This document shows positions 19,854 through 38,088 of a stretch of DNA of 38,566 nucleotides, piece after piece. The translations under genes were made by a program, and so were the position numbers. The first letter of the stretch is position 1. Every line of letters begins with the position of its first letter. The notes below the pieces were generated by a model that saw nothing but the letters and a program-made list of their open reading frames with translations, had not been told where the DNA came from and ran no database searches. Source of the DNA: a virus. The DNA is taken from positions 1 through 38,566 of the IMG/VR virus record IMGVR_UViG_3300035698_025276. One strand, written 5' to 3'.

Positions 19854-19901
19854 AAGACACTGACAGCAAAAAAAATATATTTGTGATATAAAATGTGTCT
19901 T
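19854..19901 (+). ncRNA. Leader hairpin U0, same family as the downstream array
   Basis: 5' arm AAGACAC (19854-19860) pairs with 3' arm GTGTCTT (19895-19901), 7 bp. Then follow a T-T mismatch and the conserved GACAGCAA just inside the 5' arm, and TTGACAG after the 3' arm. The same design recurs five times after the Ro-like gene. Located between promoter P3 and the ribosome binding site at 19911, it could be an autoregulatory binding site or a processed Y-like RNA. Confidence 0.65.
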
Positions 19902-19922
19902 GACAGAAACAGGAGAAATGAT

Positions 19923-21461
19923 ATGTTAATGAGACAAATTGAAAAAACAATTAATCAGGATTTTAATGAAGCAAGAACGGAAAATGGAGCATTGGGCTAC
20001 GAAACTACCGGGAAAAAATTATTAGACTTAAACTTTATGGTATCTTCCTTGCGTAATTTAACCGAAGAAGAAATCATTTATAAGTTTATGTTTGCTTTTT
20101 ATGAAAACAAAGAATTAGCTATGAAATGGTTATTTTATCTTAGAGACATAAGACAGGGTTTAGGTGAAAGAAGAAGCTTTAGAGTCATCTTAAAACACCT
20201 TACAAGCACATCTAATGTGATAACATTAAGTTTGTTAAAATTAGTTTCTGAATATGGTAGATGGGATGATTTACTTCCCTTGTTAGATATAAAGAATAAT
20301 TTAAATGGACTTGGTGTTGTTGGAATTATCAGAGAACAATTAAAAAGTGATTTAAAAAATGAAAAAGAAAATAATAAAATTTCATTATTAGCAAAATGGT
20401 TACCATCAATTAACACTTCTTCTGAAAAAACTAGAAAAATTGCGAAAAATCTTTCTTCAATATTGAATTTTTCAGAGAAAGAATATAGACAACTTTTATC
20501 TAAATTAAGAAAACATATTAATGTTGTAGAACAAAAAATGTCAGCTAACCAATGGAATGAAATAGAATATGAAAAAGTTCCATCTAATGCTAATCTTTTA
20601 TATAGAAAAGCATTTCTAAAACACGACGAAGAAAGAAGAGAAGAATATCTAGAACAAGTTGAAAATGGAGAAGCAAAAATAAATTCATCTGTATTATTTC
20701 CACATGATATTGTTGGTAGATATACAGAGGGTAGTCTTTGGTCTCAATCTGTAGGTGCATTAGATAACACCTTAGAAGCATTATGGAAAGCACTTCCAAA
20801 CATAATAAAAGACAACAATACAATTGTAGTTGCGGATGGTTCTGGTAGTATGATAAATTCTATTGGAGATACAGAAACAACATATTTAGATGCTGCAATG
20901 GCATTAGCTATTTACTTTTCGGAAAGAGCTAAAGGTGATTTTAAGGATAAGTATATTACATTTAGTAGCTCTCCTAGGATTGTTGATTTTGGTAGTGCTA
21001 ATAGCTTAAAAGAAAAAATTGAAGTTGCATTAATGTATAGCGAAGTAGACAATACAAATGTAGAAGCGGTATTTGATTTAATTTTGCAAACTGCAATAAA
21101 CGGAAGAATGGAACAAAGGGATTTGCCGAAAAATATTTTAATTCTTTCTGATATGGAGTTTGATGGAGCTGTTGATGATGATTTTGATGATAAAAAATTA
21201 TTTGAAACAATTGCTGAAAAATATAGAGAACAAGGCTACAAGTTACCAAAATTAATTTTCTGGAATCTCGGAAGTAGAAGTGAAGCTATGCCAATGAAGG
21301 AAAATGATAATGGAGTTATAATAGTTAGTGGATTTTCATCAAGTTTAGCTGGTACTATTATTTCTGGTGAAACTGATCCATATAAACATTTAATAAATAT
21401 TTTGAATTCAGATAGGTATGAAATAGTAGGAAATGCAATGGGTGGAAATATAATAGAGTAA
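19923..21461 (+). CDS. Ro60/TROVE-like (DUF2828-type) RNA-binding protein with vWA domain
   Basis: 512 residues from the ATG at 19923, chosen because CAGGAGAAATG precedes it; an upstream in-frame ATG at 19893 falls in the leader hairpin. The N-terminal two thirds are HEAT-like helices with LFYLRDIRQGLGERRSFRVIL, the RD-IR-G-GER motif of the TROVE/DUF2828 ring. The C-terminal part is a vWA domain with a MIDAS DGSGS at about 305-309, then DNTNVEAVFDLI, and NILILSDMEFDG near 408. In eukaryotes and bacteria such proteins are doughnut-shaped, bind misfolded RNAs and Y RNAs, and tether nucleases. The flanking hairpin repeats fit that role. The host-side or phage-side target is unknown. Confidence 0.85.
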   Translation: MLMRQIEKTINQDFNEARTENGALGYETTGKKLLDLNFMVSSLRNLTEEEIIYKFMFAFYENKELAMKWLFYLRDIRQGLGERRSFRVILKHLTSTSNVITLSLLKLVSEYGRWDDLLPLLDIKNNLNGLGVVGIIREQLKSDLKNEKENNKISLLAKWLPSINTSSEKTRKIAKNLSSILNFSEKEYRQLLSKLRKHINVVEQKMSANQWNEIEYEKVPSNANLLYRKAFLKHDEERREEYLEQVENGEAKINSSVLFPHDIVGRYTEGSLWSQSVGALDNTLEALWKALPNIIKDNNTIVVADGSGSMINSIGDTETTYLDAAMALAIYFSERAKGDFKDKYITFSSSPRIVDFGSANSLKEKIEVALMYSEVDNTNVEAVFDLILQTAINGRMEQRDLPKNILILSDMEFDGAVDDDFDDKKLFETIAEKYREQGYKLPKLIFWNLGSRSEAMPMKENDNGVIIVSGFSSSLAGTIISGETDPYKHLINILNSDRYEIVGNAMGGNIIE

Positions 21462-29195: not shown

Positions 29196-29851
29196 CTTCG
29201 AAACAAAAGAAAATTTTAGATGAATGTTGGAGAAAGGCTGTAAAAGAAAGAGATGAATATATAGACCAATGGGAATTATTTACAACAAAAGAAGAAACAT
29301 TTGGAACTGATGCTCATCATATTTTTGGAAGAGGAACGTCTATAATCAATAGATACGATGTTGAGAACGGAATAACTCTTTCACGTAAAAATCATGGACT
29401 TGCAGAGAACAATAAAATGCTTGAATTTGAACACTTTATAAAAGCAAACAAAGGAGAAATGTATAATAAGTTTCAACAACAAGTAAATATTCAATGTATT
29501 CCAATGGAGTATGAAGCTATGTTTTTTAATAATTTCTTTGAAACAAAAAAACAAGAACTTGAAGATTATTATGAGTTTGAAGGATTTGAAATACAAAGTA
29601 AAAAGAAACTTATTGATATTTTAGTTGGATCAAATAGAATAAAACAGCTAGGGAAAAGTTCGACCTTACAAACAAGGGTTTTTGAATTTTGCATGACAAT
29701 GAAACCTAATATTCAAGCTAAAAAATTTTGGTGTACAATAACTGGTGAAAAAATTAATTTTTTCTATGATAGCGAAGCAAAACAAAAAATATTTTTATTT
29801 AGTATTTTTATATATGAACTTTTGAAGGAAGAGATGCTATATGTGTATTAA
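29183..29851 (+). CDS. HNH-type endonuclease-like protein with no canonical start codon
   Basis: An open frame runs from 29171 to 29851 with no ATG, GTG or TTG before an internal ATG at 29417, yet the HNH motif lies before that ATG: DAHHIFGR (about residues 35-42) followed by RYDVENGITLSRKNHGLAEN. This is the HH...N-G-I-x-L...H pattern. SD-like AAAGGA (29169-29174) stands 8 nt before an in-frame ATC (29183), which I use as start. The C-terminal 150 residues (QELEDYYEFEGFEIQ) are of unknown type. Other explanations are a -1 frameshift from the preceding gene or an error. HNH proteins cut DNA or act in packaging or homing. The Cys pairs of the classical zinc-HNH are absent. Confidence 0.6.
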   Translation: MRNLTSKQKKILDECWRKAVKERDEYIDQWELFTTKEETFGTDAHHIFGRGTSIINRYDVENGITLSRKNHGLAENNKMLEFEHFIKANKGEMYNKFQQQVNIQCIPMEYEAMFFNNFFETKKQELEDYYEFEGFEIQSKKKLIDILVGSNRIKQLGKSSTLQTRVFEFCMTMKPNIQAKKFWCTITGEKINFFYDSEAKQKIFLFSIFIYELLKEEMLYVY

Positions 29852-30524
29852 ACTATCTGTATCTAATTGTGATCTAGTTAATCATTTGGTTGATGTCTGT
29901 ACTACTATCTATTTACCGAAGTGTAGCTTAAGGTGTCCGTACTGTTTCAACTTAGATGTAGTTGATGGCAAGAATTTAAAAAACTACACAGAGCGTACAC
30001 TTACAGAAGAAATTATAAATTCAAAACAAAAAAACTTTGTTATAACTGGTGGTGAAGCATTGTTTGATTTTAGTGTTTTTAAATTAATAATAAAAATAAT
30101 AAATAAAACAAATCCAGAATCTATTCAAGTTAATACAAATATGATGCATCCTAATGAACTTTTGTGGTTTGTAGAGAATGTAGACAACCCACTTGTAGCC
30201 TTTGATTTAAAAGCAGACCTAAGTGATTACTATAAGCTGAATCCAATTTTTGCAGATACAAAAAAGAGATTTTTACAAAGTTTAAATATTTTAAAAATAA
30301 ATAAAAAATTAAAAGAAATTCAATGTAGAACAACATTATCTAACTATGTTTCCGAAGATACTTTACTTGAAATGCCAAAATTATTAACAGGATTTGGCGA
30401 AAACTTTACATGGAGTTTACAAGACTTAGAACCAAAAAAAATATACAGTAAAGCTAAGGTAGAAAGTTTTATGAGAAAAATTAAAAGTGGATACGGTATA
30501 AAGGTACTCCACAACGGAGAGTAA
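29841..30524 (+). CDS. NrdG-like radical SAM activase
   Basis: 227 residues. The C-x3-C-x2-C cluster motif is C28, C32 and C35 (CSLRCPYC), and the SAM-binding GGE is at 70-72 (VITGGEALF). The short length without a C-terminal extra cluster fits the pyruvate-formate-lyase-activase / anaerobic ribonucleotide-reductase-activase (NrdG) branch. NrdG installs a glycyl radical in NrdD; NrdD is not in the window, so it may lie elsewhere or be host-encoded. Other small radical SAM enzymes (QueE-like) are possible. It overlaps the upstream HNH frame by 11 nt. Confidence 0.75.
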   Translation: MCIKLSVSNCDLVNHLVDVCTTIYLPKCSLRCPYCFNLDVVDGKNLKNYTERTLTEEIINSKQKNFVITGGEALFDFSVFKLIIKIINKTNPESIQVNTNMMHPNELLWFVENVDNPLVAFDLKADLSDYYKLNPIFADTKKRFLQSLNILKINKKLKEIQCRTTLSNYVSEDTLLEMPKLLTGFGENFTWSLQDLEPKKIYSKAKVESFMRKIKSGYGIKVLHNGE

Positions 30525-32259: not shown

Positions 32260-32490
32260 ATGGATGTAACAGAAAAGATTTTTTCGCTTTTAAAGTCTTC
32301 AACAGAAAATTTAATTTTTGACAGTGCAAATTGTGAATACTTTTTAGCGATTTGTAAAAAATCAGATGTAAAAGAATTAATTAAAGATTTATCTATTTAT
32401 TTAGAAGAACCAACTAAGGAAATTTTTGAAAAAACAATAGAATCAGTATTTGTTGTTTCTAAGGTGTTAAACCCTAAAAAGAATGAATAA
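32260..32490 (+). CDS. Hypothetical acidic helical protein
   Basis: 76 residues, starting 2 nt after the previous stop. Mostly helical with two Cys (NCEYFLAICKK) and an acidic-basic mix. No motif recognised. Its end overlaps the next start by 8 nt (ATGAATAA), so translation is coupled. Confidence 0.55.
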   Translation: MDVTEKIFSLLKSSTENLIFDSANCEYFLAICKKSDVKELIKDLSIYLEEPTKEIFEKTIESVFVVSKVLNPKKNE

Positions 32491-32917
32491 AAAAAGTGAC
32501 TCTATAATTAATCCGCTATATAGATTGGGAATAAAAACCAGAGAGCAACATGTAGAATATTATATTGGCAAAATTAAAAATGCTAAAAAAAACATTAAAG
32601 CAACAATTAGAAATGGATTTTATCCAATGACATTATTCGATTGCTTAGAAGAACGAAAAGATGGAAAATATTGCGGAATGTGTGAGCTATACCCTATGTG
32701 TAGAGCATTTGGATGGTTGTGTCATGTTTTTAATGCACAATATTTGCAATCTCATCCTGATGATGGAGTACAGGAACTTTTAATGGGATTACTTGATGCT
32801 TTTTTACTTAAGTTGGAAAGAGAACTTGAAGATAGTATTAACGAATGGAGTAAAACATTTAGAGTTGAAAGAGGCTTGCCTAAAAAAATAAAACTTTCAA
32901 AAAAACTTGACAAATAG
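32483..32917 (+). CDS. Hypothetical protein with Cys cluster
   Basis: 144 residues. A central cluster DCLEERKDGKYCGMCELYPM then CRAFGWLC carries five Cys within about 30 residues, so a metal or Fe-S site is possible. The C-terminal half is helical (LLDAFLLKLERELEDSINEW). The last codons overlap the promoter at 32907-32935, and its stop lies just before the tRNA promoter -10. No family is recognised. Confidence 0.6.
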   Translation: MNKKSDSIINPLYRLGIKTREQHVEYYIGKIKNAKKNIKATIRNGFYPMTLFDCLEERKDGKYCGMCELYPMCRAFGWLCHVFNAQYLQSHPDDGVQELLMGLLDAFLLKLERELEDSINEWSKTFRVERGLPKKIKLSKKLDK

Positions 32918-32935
32918 ATAAAAGCGTGGTATAAT
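32907..32935 (+). promoter_or_regulatory. Promoter P6 for tRNA-Thr and the radical SAM / SNSSSSSF operon
   Basis: TTGACA (32907-32912), 17-nt spacer, TATAAT (32930-32935) with TGG extended -10: both hexamers perfect. The tRNA begins 19 nt after the -10, and the radical SAM gene follows at 33055, so one transcript may carry both. The -35 overlaps the end of the upstream gene. Confidence 0.9.
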
Positions 32936-32953
32936 AATAGCAGAAAGATAAAT

Positions 32954-33025
32954 GCCGGTGTAACTCAATTGGTAGAGTAGCTGACCTGTAATCAGCAAAC
33001 GTCTGTTCGACTCGGACCATCGGCT
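32954..33025 (+). tRNA. tRNA-Thr (anticodon UGU)
   Basis: 72 nt. Acceptor GCCGGTG pairs with CATCGGC (one G-T). D arm ACTC/GAGT with loop AATTGGTA; anticodon stem GCTGA/TCAGC with loop CCTGTAA, anticodon TGT; T arm GTCTG/CGGAC with loop TTCGACT; variable region only 4 nt (AAAC). The discriminator is T, and no CCA is encoded. Position 33 is C instead of the almost universal U, an unusual detail in the anticodon loop. A T run follows the tRNA. It would decode ACA (and ACG), a common codon in this AT-rich genome. Confidence 0.9.
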
Positions 33026-33054
33026 TTTTTAATTTATGCTAGAGAGGAAAATAT

Positions 33055-34044
33055 ATGAAAAACAAAATAGTAAGAACACCATTTTACAATTATTTATTTA
33101 ATGTTAAAACTGGATATTTTGCAAGATGGGGAAAAGACAAAGAGGATGATCCTTTATTTTCTCCTATTGGACCAGAGATTTTAGACTTCGAAGTAAGTGA
33201 AATTTGTCATGGAAATTGTGAATTTTGTTATAAATCTAATATGGCGAGAGGCTCAAACACCTCCTTTAAAACATTTAAACATATTATAGATAGAATGCCA
33301 TCAGTTACACAAGTTGCATTTGGTATTGGTGATATAGATGGTAATCCAGATTTAATTAAAATGTTTAAATATTGTAGAGAGATTAATATAGTACCGAATA
33401 TTACAATTAATGGTGCTAGAATGAATGATTATTATTATAATCAACTCGCAACACTATGTGGGGCTGTAGCAGTTTCTAGGTACGAGGATAATGAATGTTT
33501 TAATGCTGTTTGTGAACTTACTGATAGGGGTTTGAAACAAGTAAATATACATCAATTGGTTTCCGAAGAAACCTATGAGGATTGTTTGAGATTAGCAAAA
33601 TTATCACTTACAGATAAAAGATTAAAAAAATTAAATGCTATTGTATTTTTAGCTTTAAAGCAAAAAGGACGTGGAGAGTCTTTTCATGTTTTATCTCAAG
33701 AAAAATTTAATAAAATTATAAACTTTTGTACAGAAAATAACATTTCATATGGTGCAGATTCTTGTGGTGCTAATAAGGTATTACAAGCTCATATTGGAAC
33801 AAAAGAATACGACAAGGTAAAAACATATGTTGAACCATGTGAGAGTGGATTATTTTCAGCTTACGTGAATGTACATGGAGAATTTTTCCCTTGTTCCTTC
33901 TCTGAACATATAGGTGGAATTGATGGGATTGATTTAAATAATGATTTTGATTTTTTAAATGATGTATGGTATGCCCCAAACACAATAGCATGGAGAAAAA
34001 GATTGTTGAAAAATAAACGTAATTGTCCAATCTATACAGTTTAA
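33055..34044 (+). CDS. Radical SAM enzyme with SPASM-like C-terminus, next to the SNSSSSSF genes
   Basis: 329 residues. C-x3-C-x2-C cluster CHGNCEFC at 51-58, then GIGDIDGNPDL (90-100), a variant of the GGE region. Further Cys residues follow the core: C237, C262 (PCESGLFSAYVNVHGEFFPC), C280 and C324 (NCPIY). This spacing resembles SPASM/twitch domains, which bind auxiliary [4Fe-4S] clusters. SPASM radical SAM enzymes often modify peptides or proteins. Its stop is followed after 1 nt by the first SNSSSSSF gene, suggesting coupled translation. It follows the tRNA. No leader peptide gene of RiPP type is otherwise visible. The proposed substrate link is inference. Confidence 0.85.
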   Translation: MKNKIVRTPFYNYLFNVKTGYFARWGKDKEDDPLFSPIGPEILDFEVSEICHGNCEFCYKSNMARGSNTSFKTFKHIIDRMPSVTQVAFGIGDIDGNPDLIKMFKYCREINIVPNITINGARMNDYYYNQLATLCGAVAVSRYEDNECFNAVCELTDRGLKQVNIHQLVSEETYEDCLRLAKLSLTDKRLKKLNAIVFLALKQKGRGESFHVLSQEKFNKIINFCTENNISYGADSCGANKVLQAHIGTKEYDKVKTYVEPCESGLFSAYVNVHGEFFPCSFSEHIGGIDGIDLNNDFDFLNDVWYAPNTIAWRKRLLKNKRNCPIYTV

Positions 34045-34045
34045 C

Positions 34046-34393
34046 ATGAAGATAAGAACAGGATTTGTTTCAAATAGTTCTAGCTCAAGTTTTATAATAA
34101 GAAAAAGTGCATTAACTAGAAAAGAATTAGATTTTATCTATACTTTTAAAGATGCATATTGTGACTATGCTTTCAATAGTAGTATATTAGAAACTGATGA
34201 GTTTTTTATCGGAGAGATGGAACATACTTGCTCTCCTTGCTGGAATGACGATACTCCTTCTTATGAGAAAATTTTTTCTAATTTTTTTGAACATCTAGAC
34301 GAGAAAGATTTTAGGATTGGCGGAGAAGAATGTTTTTACGAAAACGATAAAGGTAAATTGGTTAATTGTTATGATGAGTACAATCAGCATTAG
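34046..34393 (+). CDS. SNSSSSSF-motif protein 1
   Basis: 115 residues. Residues 1-17 read MKIRTGFVSNSSSSSFI and are shared by seven consecutive genes. The body starts IRKSALT, continues acidic (FKDAYCDYAFNSS, EDEFFIGEMEHTCSPCW with a CxxC), and ends in KLVNCYDEYNQH. It is most like protein 6 (36136-36450), sharing IIRKSALT, a FxDAY segment, EFFxG and a DEKDF/DEDF ending. It starts 1 nt after the radical SAM stop and lacks its own Shine-Dalgarno, so it depends on translational coupling. No known domain recognised. Confidence 0.8.
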   Translation: MKIRTGFVSNSSSSSFIIRKSALTRKELDFIYTFKDAYCDYAFNSSILETDEFFIGEMEHTCSPCWNDDTPSYEKIFSNFFEHLDEKDFRIGGEECFYENDKGKLVNCYDEYNQH

Positions 34394-34405
34394 GGAGAAA
34401 TTAAT

Positions 34406-34828
34406 ATGAAAATTAGAAATGGGTTTGTTTCAAATAGTTCAAGTAGTAGTTTTGTTATAAAGGGGTTTTTAGTTGATAAGGATGAAATTTCTTTAGAAGA
34501 CTTAGCTAGTATTATTTTTCCAGAATTTAAAAAAAAGCAAAAAGAATATATGGAAGAATACAATTACTCACAAAACGAAGCAGCAGAAGCAATAGTAACC
34601 GAATTTAATGCTTGTGATCGGGATATTTACATTGGAACCGATACATCTGATGGATGTCCAATTGAAAATGTTTATCTTGTTGGAACTATTTTAGCAAAAG
34701 CATATGTGCAAGATTTTTTTAAATATTCTGAATTTGATTTAAATCCAAGTGAAAAATTAATTAAAATTAAAAATAAATTAAATATAAAAACACCAGACAA
34801 GATAATTTGCGGAAACGGAATGATGTAA
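34406..34828 (+). CDS. SNSSSSSF-motif protein 2
   Basis: 140 residues; AGGGAGAAATT before the ATG. N-terminus MKIRNGFVSNSSSSSFV. The body runs GFLVDKDEISLEDL, then DIYIGTDTSDGCPIENVYLVG and PSEKLIKIKNKL. It is clearly paralogous to protein 4 (35347-35769) over its whole length (GFLVDK, ISLE, YIG/YVG, GCP, PSE), so this pair is a duplicated body type. The body resembles an acidic alpha/beta domain of unknown family. Confidence 0.8.
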   Translation: MKIRNGFVSNSSSSSFVIKGFLVDKDEISLEDLASIIFPEFKKKQKEYMEEYNYSQNEAAEAIVTEFNACDRDIYIGTDTSDGCPIENVYLVGTILAKAYVQDFFKYSEFDLNPSEKLIKIKNKLNIKTPDKIICGNGMM

Positions 34829-34854
34829 GTATTTTTTCAAAAAGGAGATAGAAA

Positions 34855-35340
34855 ATGAAAATAAGAACAGGATTTGTATCTAATTCAAGTTCAAGTAGTT
34901 TTATAATAGCAATTGCAAGCGTTGCTAACAAAGAATACATAGAAAGAAAAGTAAAAAAAATAAATGATAACAAGTTAAAATCAGAAGAATATGGAATAAC
35001 ACTTGTTTGTGATACTATTAAAAATTTAGAAAAATCAGAAGAACATTATGATTTAAATATAGGGCATAATTTTATTGAACTTGAAACATTCACAAACGCT
35101 CATGTTTCATTGGATAGAAGAAATAAAAATCCAGATGATTTAATTATATATTTTAAATATCATGGAAATGAAGGTGATGATTGTTTTTTTGAAGATGGGG
35201 CTGATGAAATAACAAAAATACATGATTTAGAGTGGTTTGAGGACGATGGAAAAAATTTAAATAAAATTATAAATATTTTTCTTGACGAAGATGGCTTGGA
35301 AGATATTGATTTAAAATATGGCGAAGGTAGAAATGGGTGA
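34855..35340 (+). CDS. SNSSSSSF-motif protein 3
   Basis: 161 residues, the longest of the set; AAAAGGAGATAG upstream. N-terminus MKIRTGFVSNSSSSSFI, then an Ala/Ile stretch and Lys-rich helix, then a long acidic C-terminal region (DGADEITKIHDLEWFEDDGK, LDEDGLEDIDL). The body is unlike the others in the cassette. No known domain recognised. Confidence 0.8.
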   Translation: MKIRTGFVSNSSSSSFIIAIASVANKEYIERKVKKINDNKLKSEEYGITLVCDTIKNLEKSEEHYDLNIGHNFIELETFTNAHVSLDRRNKNPDDLIIYFKYHGNEGDDCFFEDGADEITKIHDLEWFEDDGKNLNKIINIFLDEDGLEDIDLKYGEGRNG

Positions 35341-35346
35341 TATAGA

Positions 35347-35769
35347 ATGAAGGTAAGAACAGGTTTCGTTTCAAATAGTTCTAGTAGTAGTTTTGTTCTT
35401 CTTGGTTTTCTTGTTGACAAAAAAGATATATCATTAGAAAGTCTTGGAAAAATTCTTATAGATAATTTTGACAGCAGGCTAGAAAAACGTATGAAAAACT
35501 ATATATATAGTGATAGAGATGAAGCTATAGATGATTTTTTTTGTGAATTTTCTTGTGAATCTAATATTTATGTTGGCGAAAATGATGAAAATGGATGTCC
35601 GAATAACGACACATACTTAATTGGTGACATGTTGGCTGAAATATCTGGAATGGAAGATTTTGATTATCAAGAATTAGCTTTAACTCCATCAGAAGAGCTT
35701 AAGGAAATTCAAGAAAAATTAAAAATTAAAAATAAAATAAAATTATTTTCTAGTAGTAGGATGATATAA
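35347..35769 (+). CDS. SNSSSSSF-motif protein 4
   Basis: 140 residues, same length and body type as protein 2: GFLVDKKDISLESL, an acidic DEAIDDFFCEF segment, NIYVGENDENGCPNNDTYLIG and LTPSEELKEIQEKL. The motif here reads MKVRTGFVSNSSSSSFV. It ends SSRMI; its stop overlaps the next ATG by one base (TAATG). Confidence 0.8.
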   Translation: MKVRTGFVSNSSSSSFVLLGFLVDKKDISLESLGKILIDNFDSRLEKRMKNYIYSDRDEAIDDFFCEFSCESNIYVGENDENGCPNNDTYLIGDMLAEISGMEDFDYQELALTPSEELKEIQEKLKIKNKIKLFSSSRMI

Positions 35770-36134
35770 TGAAAATTAGACAAGGTTTTGTTTCTAATAG
35801 TTCTTCAAGTAGTTTTATTATTACAAACAAAACAAATAAAAACAAAACATTAACAGACTTTGTAAAAGAAAATAAAAAATTATTTAAAAATTATCTTTTA
35901 TGTCAAGACGATGAACATACTATGGATCAAATGTATTCATATTCTAGTGTTTGGGATGAGGAAAATAAAGGATTTAAGCCACTTGAATCAAAGAAATGTT
36001 TTTTCGGAAATGAAGAAAATGATGGGGAATTTAGCATTGACTATGAAAATCTTTTGTCGCATGAAACAAGTAATGATAGACAAGCAATAGAATCAAAATC
36101 ATTTATTTGTGAATTTGATGGATGTTGGCATTAA
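35769..36134 (+). CDS. SNSSSSSF-motif protein 5
   Basis: 121 residues, MKIRQGFVSNSSSSSFI followed by a Lys/Asn/Thr-rich segment and an acidic body with single Cys residues (LLCQDDEHTMDQMYS, KKCFFGNEENDGEF). The ending CEFDGCWH carries two Cys and a His, possibly a metal site. Its start overlaps the upstream stop by one base. Confidence 0.8.
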   Translation: MKIRQGFVSNSSSSSFIITNKTNKNKTLTDFVKENKKLFKNYLLCQDDEHTMDQMYSYSSVWDEENKGFKPLESKKCFFGNEENDGEFSIDYENLLSHETSNDRQAIESKSFICEFDGCWH

Positions 36135-36135
36135 A

Positions 36136-36450
36136 ATGAAAGTACGTAGTGGATTTGTATCAAATAGTAGTAGTTCAAGTTTCATAATAAGAAAAAGCGC
36201 ATTAACCGAAAATCAGGAAATGATGATTCGTATATTTTTTGATGCATATGGTGATGGTATTTTAGATGAATTAAATGAAGATGAAAAATTTTTTGAAGGA
36301 AGCGTGAATTGCCATAGGGGAACACCATGGTCTGGCAATCTCTTACGAAGCAATATGCTCTGTAAAATTTTAGAAAATTTAAATGACGAAGACTTTTTGT
36401 GTTTTGCAGATATTGGTATTTACGTTGATAAAAATGATAACATAATATGA
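36136..36450 (+). CDS. SNSSSSSF-motif protein 6
   Basis: 104 residues from the ATG at 36136, 1 nt after the upstream stop; a longer ATG form (36109) would add nine residues before the motif and is disfavoured. MKVRSGFVSNSSSSSFI, then IRKSALTENQEMMIRIFFDA and EKFFEGSVNC, so its body matches protein 1. Ends YVDKNDNII. Confidence 0.8.
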   Translation: MKVRSGFVSNSSSSSFIIRKSALTENQEMMIRIFFDAYGDGILDELNEDEKFFEGSVNCHRGTPWSGNLLRSNMLCKILENLNDEDFLCFADIGIYVDKNDNII

Positions 36451-36479
36451 AGTTATTAATATAGAAAAAGGAGAAAATT

Positions 36480-36911
36480 TTGAAAATTAGAAATGGATTT
36501 GTAAGTAATAGTAGTTCTAGCAGCTTTGTTTGTTATGGAGCAAGTATTGAAGCTTATGGAAAAGAAAAAAGAGAAGAAATTAAAAATAAAATTATAAAAA
36601 GTATTAACGAAGGATTTTTTGGCGAAAAACTTAAAAAAGAATACATTAAAGAAGTACAAGAGATGGCTAATACCTGGGATTTGGGTGAGTTTTTATGCAG
36701 TACTCAAAAACTAAGCAAACTATGTTTTGAATGTAGCTTTATGAGTGATGATGATTTATTGTTAATTGGAATTGACTATTACGATGCACTAACAAATGAT
36801 GAAAATTTAACATTGAAAAAAATAAAAAGTTCTGCTAAAAAAATATTAAAAGAATTATTCGGAAAAGAAACTAAAATTGAACACATACAAACTGCGTGGT
36901 ATGATGGCTAG
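36480..36911 (+). CDS. SNSSSSSF-motif protein 7
   Basis: 143 residues, TTG start at 36480 with AAAGGAG at a normal distance; motif MKIRNGFVSNSSSSSFV. The body is Lys/Glu-rich and helical (SIEAYGKEKREEIKNKI, KKEYIKEVQEMAN), then a Cys-containing LCFECSFMSDDDLLLIGIDY. It is last in the uninterrupted series of seven. Confidence 0.78.
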   Translation: MKIRNGFVSNSSSSSFVCYGASIEAYGKEKREEIKNKIIKSINEGFFGEKLKKEYIKEVQEMANTWDLGEFLCSTQKLSKLCFECSFMSDDDLLLIGIDYYDALTNDENLTLKKIKSSAKKILKELFGKETKIEHIQTAWYDG

Positions 36912-36937
36912 ATCTTAATGAAACAAAGGAAAAAATA

Positions 36938-37192
36938 ATGATAGAAAATAGTAAAGTTGAAGGAGTTTTAGAATTAAGTTCAGATATTTTATATTTAAGA
37001 AGCTTATTAGAAGAAACAATAGATAAAAAAGAAAAACAAACAGAAACAGAAGCTTTTACATTGTTATTAAATAAAAAATTAGAAGAACTTGAAAGTTTTA
37101 TTAGTACAGATACTTATACATTTGATTATGTTTCTTCTGCTAGTAATAATACTGGAAGTTTTTTAAAAAATGCAGCTACAGGAATAATGTAA
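36938..37192 (+). CDS. Small acidic coiled-coil protein
   Basis: 84 residues. Glu/Leu-rich helix over about 7-50 and a Ser/Asn-rich C-terminus. It lacks the SNSSSSSF motif, so the cassette seems to end before it, although an SSASNNTGSF stretch occurs near the end. The stop is 1 nt before the next start. Unknown function. Confidence 0.55.
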   Translation: MIENSKVEGVLELSSDILYLRSLLEETIDKKEKQTETEAFTLLLNKKLEELESFISTDTYTFDYVSSASNNTGSFLKNAATGIM

Positions 37193-37193
37193 G

Positions 37194-37577
37194 ATGCTTA
37201 TGGAAGAGCAAGTAATTATTGTAACTAAAATAGCTAAAGAAATGTCTGAATATCTTCATATTGAATTAAATAACATATGTATTCGTTTGGAAAAAATAGA
37301 TAAAAGACTTGGTGGTATTGAAAAAAAACTTGAAAAGCAAAATGAAAATATTAATAAAATAAAAAATGATTTAAAAAATTTTCGTGATGAAAATGATAGG
37401 GCATTTAGAAATCTGAAAAATTCTGTTAGAAGTGTAGAAAATGATTCGTTTGATTTGCAAAGTAAATTCAATCAATTGCGAGTAAGAAATAATATAGACA
37501 ATGATGACGGTATTAAATACATATATTCAAGATCTTCTGAAGCCAATTCGTGTACGAATCCAGATATAATAGATTAA
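37194..37577 (+). CDS. Coiled-coil protein
   Basis: 127 residues with a long amphipathic helix over about 25-95 (KIDKRLGGIEKKLEKQNENI, DRAFRNLKNSVRSVENDSFD), Lys/Asn/Ile-rich; it probably makes a trimeric or dimeric coiled coil. ATGs at 37194 and 37200 are both possible. The C-terminus ends in SEANSCTNPDIID. No family recognised. Confidence 0.55.
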   Translation: MLMEEQVIIVTKIAKEMSEYLHIELNNICIRLEKIDKRLGGIEKKLEKQNENINKIKNDLKNFRDENDRAFRNLKNSVRSVENDSFDLQSKFNQLRVRNNIDNDDGIKYIYSRSSEANSCTNPDIID

Positions 37578-37593
37578 AATAGGAGAATAGAAT

Positions 37594-38088
37594 ATGAAAC
37601 AATTATTAGCAGGAATTTTAGTAATGATGATGGCTTCATCACCAATCTTTAGTTTTGAGGTTACAGAAGCTTGGGGTCTTTTAAATGTAAATTGTTCAGA
37701 TCAGATTCTTAATGAAGAATCTGATGTTGACATACAAAAACCTCATGATTTTCAAGTTGAAACCGTTGATAGAATATATAATATACAGACAATAGCATAT
37801 TATACAAAGTCTAGCCTAGAGAGTGGAAAAATTACTGTATATCCAACTTACCTTCTTTTCGAATGGAAACTAGTTGATGGAGCACACGAAAACTTCAAAA
37901 CTGCAACAATTTACAATGAAACTTTTGATGAGTATACGGATTTTGACATTACAAATAAAGGTAGCGTTGAAATACCATACCATGTTGGAACTAATGATTA
38001 TGATTTGTATTGTTATACTGGGCAAACAGTTGGGTTGATAGAATTTGATATTTTAGATGCTTTGATAGTTTATGTTGAGTTAAAATAA
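37594..38088 (+). CDS. Exported protein with N-terminal signal peptide
   Basis: 164 residues. MKQLLAGILVMMMASSPIFS forms a clear signal peptide (Lys, hydrophobic core, small residues), with probable cleavage before FEVTEAWG. The mature part is beta-rich and acidic (LYCYTGQTVGLIEFDILDAL, YHVGTNDYD), without a lipobox, so it may be secreted or periplasmic. Few Cys. A phage-encoded exported protein could alter the host envelope or exclude superinfecting phages. AGGAGAA precedes the ATG. Confidence 0.65.
   Translation: MKQLLAGILVMMMASSPIFSFEVTEAWGLLNVNCSDQILNEESDVDIQKPHDFQVETVDRIYNIQTIAYYTKSSLESGKITVYPTYLLFEWKLVDGAHENFKTATIYNETFDEYTDFDITNKGSVEIPYHVGTNDYDLYCYTGQTVGLIEFDILDALIVYVELK

Follow-up and report, generated by a model that had tools for sequence, protein, structure and literature searches.

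The closest described systems are radical S-adenosylmethionine (SAM) enzymes that act on peptides, namely SuiB, SkfB, CteB, and the anaerobic sulfatase-maturing enzyme (anSME), which modifies a residue in a short motif of larger proteins. In the ProcM/ProcA synthetases, one enzyme acts on many substrates that have a common N-terminal sequence and a variable remainder. Here we describe a locus in IMG/VR virus record IMGVR_UViG_3300035698_025276 (positions 1 to 38,566; we call this whole 38.6-kb stretch the window) in which a radical SAM gene is followed by seven genes whose products share an N-terminal peptide, the tag, ahead of different bodies. Since portal, terminase, major head, and tail sheath genes are present, the window is part of a tailed phage. 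Like SuiB, SkfB, CteB, and anSME, the enzyme has a radical SAM barrel, a C-terminal cysteine-rich region, and a dedicated peptide encoded beside it, and its predicted fold matches theirs with Z scores of 19–24. However, its putative substrates are many unrelated proteins tagged at their N termini, not one short precursor. Unlike the motif of anaerobic sulfatases, the tag is N-terminal and common to unrelated bodies, and its consensus (in 392 and 283 proteins) contains no (C/S)-x-P-x-R. The locus also differs from ProcM/ProcA, as the enzyme chemistry is of another kind, the enzyme probably acts on the invariant part, and entire protein domains make up the variable remainder. We consider it likely that the enzyme recognizes the tag on the neighboring proteins and modifies it covalently, with one enzyme acting in trans on swappable bodies.

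Seven consecutive open reading frames (ORFs) on the plus strand begin MK(I/V)RxGFVSNSSSSSF. The original prediction had singled out these ORFs by their shared N terminus, and all seven start where it had placed them. Residues 1–16 are identical in the seven proteins, save for position 3 (I or V) and position 5. A degenerate DNA pattern for GFVSNSSSSSF matched the window exactly seven times and had no match in 100 dinucleotide shuffles. Comparison of the 16 tag codons across the 21 gene pairs revealed 132 synonymous versus 33 nonsynonymous differences, with serine codons of the TCN and AGY kinds mixed. Since the differences are mostly synonymous, selection acts on the peptide. The mixture of both kinds of serine codon and the excess of synonymous differences also led us to reject a DNA-level element or recent gene conversion as the origin of the tag.

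Behind the tag, the seven proteins fall into five body families. Genes 1 and 6 are paralogs, as are genes 2 and 4, while genes 3, 5, and 7 are each separate, in agreement with the earlier reading of at least five different bodies and only these two clear paralog pairs. The radical SAM gene ends 1 nt upstream of the first tag gene (33055–34044, then 34046), also as described. In a structural model of the gene 7 product, most tag residues had a predicted local distance difference test (pLDDT) score below 50 and are predicted to be disordered, while the body is folded (mean pLDDT 78). Fold searches with the gene 7 body returned no significant match and no known fold. We refer to the tag of the window as tag A and to its enzyme as clade A. 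The enzyme and tag genes are as follows.

33055..34044, plus strand: radical SAM enzyme, clade A, predicted to modify the tag (phrog_7293)
33205..33228, plus strand: cluster binding motif C51-x3-C55-x2-C58, invariant in 53 aligned sequences
33763..34026, plus strand: span with four further cysteines, C237, C262, C280, and C324, invariant in the 53 aligned sequences
34046..34393, plus strand: tag gene 1; the tag is the first 48 nt; body family in common with gene 6
34406..34828, plus strand: tag gene 2; body family that includes gene 4 and tagged proteins from other phages
34855..35340, plus strand: tag gene 3; its body family has 16 tagged members, with C-terminal YGxGRNG
35347..35769, plus strand: tag gene 4; paralog of gene 2
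35769..36134, plus strand: tag gene 5; its body family has 10 tagged members
36136..36450, plus strand: tag gene 6; paralog of gene 1; the true start is the ATG at 36136, not that of the longer GTG ORF at 36109
36480..36911, plus strand: tag gene 7; TTG start; largest body family, with 44 tagged proteins

The original prediction hinged on whether tag and enzyme occur together beyond the window. They did so in three separately drawn sets, with a neighbor-family control. Scanning 2.9 million viral contigs with a 23-residue tag alignment yielded 77 loci. The enzyme family was encoded within 10 kb in 47 of these and elsewhere on the contig in 7 more; after removal of near-identical loci, a local enzyme was present in 46 of 69 groups. 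When all other genes around the tags were clustered, the enzyme family was found at 51 loci, and the next non-tag family, which is RecA-like, at 6. In this clustering of the 77 loci, no other modifying enzyme, protease, or exporter family accompanied the tag. The neighbor-family count serves as the control in place of the planned one, the dUTPase of the window, which gave one locus. A tblastn search with the tag alone gave no matches, probably because low-complexity sequence was masked.

A scan in the opposite direction, with an enzyme alignment, confirmed 134 relatives, and 79 new loci were analyzed. At least one tag gene lay within 10 kb of the enzyme in 70 of the 79 (62 of 71 nonredundant groups) and at least two in 60. 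All 305 tag genes are on the same strand as the enzyme, and the nearest one lies a median of 452 nt away. Of the nine enzyme loci lacking a local tag, three, including that of phage KP15, belong to genomes that carry tags at another place. Many phages encode one to ten otherwise unrelated tagged proteins per enzyme. Because some contigs turned up in both the tag and the enzyme scan, the two scans look at a single population from two sides and are only partly independent. At one locus, a short ORF little longer than the tag lies directly 3′ of the enzyme gene (L032:5811–5885) and is possibly a decayed tag gene.

We compared conservation of the tag with that of the bodies. The 414 unique proteins carrying tag A form 124 sequence groups, 87 of them single, although this clustering will have missed some distant relationships. 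Two of 120 representatives matched Pfam (E 0.001), a leucine-rich repeat protein and a protein with a STAS-like domain; the seven families listed comprise five leucine-rich repeat models and related ones for the first and DUF4325 for the second. Our first logo of the tag (392 proteins) was limited by the search pattern, and the reliable one derives from proteins collected by body homology alone. Of these 291 proteins, 283 carry the tag, with N10 and S11 invariant (283/283), S12 and R4 each conserved in 281, S9 in 279, and G6 in 273. The eight homologs without the tag mostly look truncated or appear to have an alternative start.

The window enzyme matches phrog_7293 over nearly its full length (E 9.8e-86) and shares ~41% identity with proteins encoded by Slopekvirus and Pseudotevenvirus phages. 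It belongs among radical SAM enzymes by its CxxxCxxC motif, invariant in the 53 sequences, and a predicted partial TIM barrel. The four extra C-terminal cysteines to which the original prediction drew attention are equally invariant, and its description of the enzyme as SPASM-type holds in part. The C-x(9-15)-G-x4-C half of the SPASM motif is present as C262-x12-G-x4-C280, but the half that would hold a second auxiliary cluster, C-x2-C-x5-C-x3-C, is reduced to a single invariant remnant, C324. The window enzyme ends in NCPIYTV; its relative in Klebsiella phage Matisse retains CRNCPAYAVC. The best structural match of the enzyme model (pLDDT 96) was SuiB with its precursor peptide SuiA (Z 24.1, 302 residues), and further matches were SkfB (Z 23.4), anSME with peptide (19.4), CteB (19.2), and PqqE (19.1). 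Thus, the predicted fold is closest to peptide maturases (SuiB and SkfB), a shared fold being no proof of function. Ahead of the barrel, the model has only about 38 residues, including three short strands; the SuiB and SkfB alignments begin at residue 1–2, and most other structural matches begin at 34–41. We rejected a viperin-like nucleotide enzyme, since such folds were lower-ranked matches (Z about 18–19) and both the covariation with the tag and the fusion described below favor a protein partner. On these comparisons, the system would resemble a peptide maturase of promiscuous substrate range, but the enzyme is incomplete as a SPASM enzyme.

An intein-like element seems to interrupt two clade A enzyme genes at the third cluster cysteine (L006:7204–9553 and L037:7474–9785), and their downstream parts begin with an intein-like stretch ending in LLVHN-CYKSN and TLVHN-CYKGN, respectively. 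Homing endonuclease genes adjoin the enzyme gene in Vibrio phage D479 (L190:1–1305) and lie a few kb away in KP27 (L004:12554–13078). The enzyme gene has been reported to be split in phage Kpn35c1 (PMC9960720).

A second pair of tag and enzyme emerged at locus L002, where a distant relative of the enzyme adjoins a protein beginning MKNIRRGIFETNSSSSHS. This tag, tag B, has the form RxG(V/T)FETNSSS(T/S)H (for example, RxGVFETNSSSTHS). A scan for tag B yielded 77 loci, and a sister enzyme of the L002 type was present in 67 (54 of 61 nonredundant groups). A tree of 111 enzymes placed the 45 members of clade A apart from the 61 of clade B, with support of 1.0 and 0.86. There was no crossover, as B loci were free of A tags and A enzymes, and A loci of B tags and B enzymes, save for L002, itself a B locus; one weak pattern match in this check, at L256, is not a tag. 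One body family carries tag A in A phages and tag B in B phages. Only the CxxxCxxC cysteines are conserved in clade B, so that it has neither SPASM half, compared to one in clade A and in contrast to SuiB, SkfB, CteB, and anSME. Tag B is found on gp130 of Microcystis phage Ma-LMM01, beside a B enzyme, and on four to five genes beside the B enzyme of Lak megaphages. The text of a Ma-LMM01 transcriptome study (PMC5780444) does not name gp128 or gp130.

Further variants were identified in individual phages. In Thermus phage TMA, the gene for gp160 (EVRLTSMTNSSSASM) immediately precedes the enzyme gene, and in Rhodothermus phage RM378 the gene for gp106 (FIRFGLSTNSSSSHS) and the enzyme gene are two genes apart. 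Salmonella phage Arash encodes gp146c, a 476-residue protein in which a tagged domain (TQIRYGFATNSSSSHS) and the enzyme are fused. Residues 4–141 of this protein match phrog_28997, the Ma-LMM01 gp130 family (E 1.5e-4). A viral scan aimed at Arash-like fusions gave none. The core common to all tag variants is R, followed by (S/T)-N-S-S-S. Together, the co-occurrence, the tracking of enzyme clade by tag type, and the natural fusion support the earlier proposal that the shared peptide is a recognition or modification tag.

Pairs were also present in isolate phages. Slopekvirus and Pseudotevenvirus phages, including E. coli phage RB43, encode the enzyme and two tagged proteins, which in RB43 and Matisse lie about 20 kb off. 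In RB43, the enzyme is CCL97631 and the tagged proteins are CCL97581 and CCL97586. Vibrio phage D479 encodes at least five tagged proteins. The phage collection contains 173 records with a match to the enzyme and 174 and 175 with matches to the two tagged proteins of Matisse, respectively; since nearly all are from one lineage, we count them as one observation. Relatives of one of these proteins, Matisse gp113 (L189:1803–2273), are labeled head-tail adaptor in several records. The label rests on a match of residues 10–148 of the tagged protein to phrog_132 and may reflect either a wrong family merge or a real relation.

In the third set, drawn from 84,980 bacterial and archaeal species, the tag occurred at only ten loci, all in metagenome-assembled genomes, and nine of these ten genomes also encode the enzyme. 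The enzyme was present in 5 of 294 genomes of the Treponema order and 1 of 286 of the Verrucomicrobia class. At least two Treponema-order loci look chromosomal, with the enzyme adjoining a single tagged protein (L202:8952–10435 and L298:3973–5532) and MiaB-like, RNase III-like, and ATP-binding cassette transporter genes (named from reading the sequences) in the flanks. Binning errors may lie behind tagged cellular loci on short contigs. The L298 pair also adjoins genes for a Vsr-like endonuclease and an ATPase-like protein, and in a Lokiarchaeota assembly (L207:1586–3908) a tagged leucine-rich-repeat protein of 423 residues is encoded directly behind the enzyme gene. On balance, we favor a general viral tagging system, in which one radical SAM enzyme marks a universal N-terminal tag on many exchangeable phage proteins and whose co-evolved pairs (A, B, Thermus, Rhodothermus, and Salmonella) occur in phages of very different hosts and are rare in bacterial and archaeal assemblies.

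A model that accommodates these data is that the radical SAM enzyme binds the N-terminal peptide (R-x-G-F-V-S-N-S-S-S-S-S-F) of all seven neighbors and modifies it covalently, with the invariant (S/T)-N-S-S core as the most likely site. The tag would be a flexible tail ahead of the folded body, the bodies would be interchangeable modules, and one enzyme would serve all tagged proteins in trans. The modified proteins may then serve infection, for example in host takeover or counter-defense.

We considered whether the tag is instead a docking or targeting signal only, for binding the enzyme or for reaching a compartment or the virion, with the substrate of the enzyme elsewhere. T4 internal proteins have a common N-terminal capsid-targeting sequence, and genes annotated as structural are near the Arash fusion gene; however, the acidic L/I-x-E site of the T4-type prohead protease is absent from tag A. 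Although co-occurrence, covariation, and fusion are also expected of a noncatalytic partnership, the near-invariant and mostly Ser/Thr core, with N-S fixed in all 283 tags, suits a reaction site better. In addition, the closest folds of the enzyme act on peptides, and the pair has no companion gene for a second enzyme or a substrate. A role restricted to docking or targeting is therefore unlikely, and catalysis on the tag is the better candidate.

The closest folds are maturases of ribosomally synthesized and post-translationally modified peptides (RiPPs), and one enzyme with many substrates that share an N terminus recalls promiscuous enzymes such as ProcM. In a RiPP-like system, the tag would act as the leader, and the body would be the core, which undergoes modification and later cleavage and export. 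Yet the conserved part is the tag and not the body, most bodies are about 80–230 residues, and the modeled body folds while its tag is disordered. There is also no short precursor, and no protease or exporter family is conserved around the tags, as would characterize a classic RiPP system. We regard this explanation as quite improbable.

Chance hitch-hiking of two accessory genes in the same variable regions of large phages has very little to recommend it. Tag and enzyme genes are mostly in large phage genomes with co-directional genes, but the 2.9 million contigs yielded few members of either family (134 matches for the enzyme and 94 for the tag), no other family is beside A tags in more than 6 of 77 loci, tag type tracks enzyme clade, and pairs are also found alone beside ordinary-looking bacterial genes. 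Finally, we rejected as hardly credible the possibility that the enzyme is a glycyl-radical activase placing a stable radical on the R-x-G-F glycine, as pyruvate formate-lyase activase does on its partner: R-x-G-F resembles the glycyl radical enzyme site R-V-S-G-Y, and clade B, like the activase, has a CxxxCxxC cluster only, but 10 of 283 A tags have Ser, Tyr, Arg, or Cys at the glycine position, 13 of 87 B tags have Asn there, and the Thermus variant has no such glycine. This reading would also leave the conserved serines unexplained, and Pfam detected no glycyl-radical domain among the bodies.

Several observations weigh against covalent modification of the tag by the enzyme. Twenty-three of the 77 tag loci have no enzyme on the contig, including four contigs of more than 150 kb. 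Conversely, one 205-kb contig encodes the enzyme without the exact tag pattern, though a variant, FVANSSSSSF, is present. The window enzyme, unlike SuiB, SkfB, CteB, and anSME, appears to have no full-size leader-binding domain (RiPP recognition element) ahead of the barrel. Neither Pfam nor fold searches assigned a function to any body. The four extra cysteines are missing from clade B, so the two clades need not have one chemistry in common. Lastly, modification of the tag, although most likely, is a prediction.

As for the chemistry, the original prediction pointed to serine oxidation of the anaerobic sulfatase type. This was not supported, given that (C/S)-x-P-x-R is absent and that clade B is without auxiliary cysteines. 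Because the A and B enzymes differ in these cysteines, their chemistry may differ. Radical epimerization, cross-linking, and oxidation of serine or asparagine are possible. We rejected an N-glycosylation sequon as the meaning of N-S-S (E-T-N-S-S in tag B), as no glycosyltransferase family accompanies the tags.

In PHROG, phrog_7293 holds enzyme A, phrog_16999 enzyme B, and phrog_7397 and phrog_28997 tagged proteins. Of these, phrog_16999 is labeled Fe-S oxidoreductase and the other three as of unknown function, and the link between enzyme and tag is unrecorded. A search of the open-licence literature found no description of the tag and no enzyme-tag link. Our results provide a likely enzyme-substrate link for >100 sequence groups of uncharacterized phage proteins that share nothing detectable beyond the tag, and the tag sequence can be used to search for accessory proteins across phages. 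The predicted protein modification is undescribed, and E. coli phage RB43 makes the system directly testable. If the prediction is true, tag and enzyme could also be put to use on other proteins as a small modification handle.

The enzyme and tag genes of the window are part of an operon, in the order sigma-70 promoter, tRNA-Thr, radical SAM gene, and seven tag genes, with spacing between genes of −1 to 29 nt. Two features precede the enzyme gene.

32907..32935, plus strand: sigma-70-type promoter, TTGACA-17-TATAAT, 12/12 matches, with TG before the −10 element
32954..33025, plus strand: tRNA-Thr (tgt), the first gene of the operon

The strong promoter described in the original prediction is this perfect match. 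Because it lies 5′ of tRNA-Thr, it probably drives the whole set of tRNA, enzyme, and tag genes, and the stretch from 32400 to 38000 showed no terminator-like site. A second, different radical SAM gene at 29841–30524 of the window is QueE-like or NrdG-like (phrog_2076 or phrog_626). The window also encodes a VWA-like protein at 19893–21461 (phrog_850, RNA-binding), and in Matisse a VWA-like protein, gp116 (L189:3114–5330), is encoded between the tagged genes gp113 and gp118.

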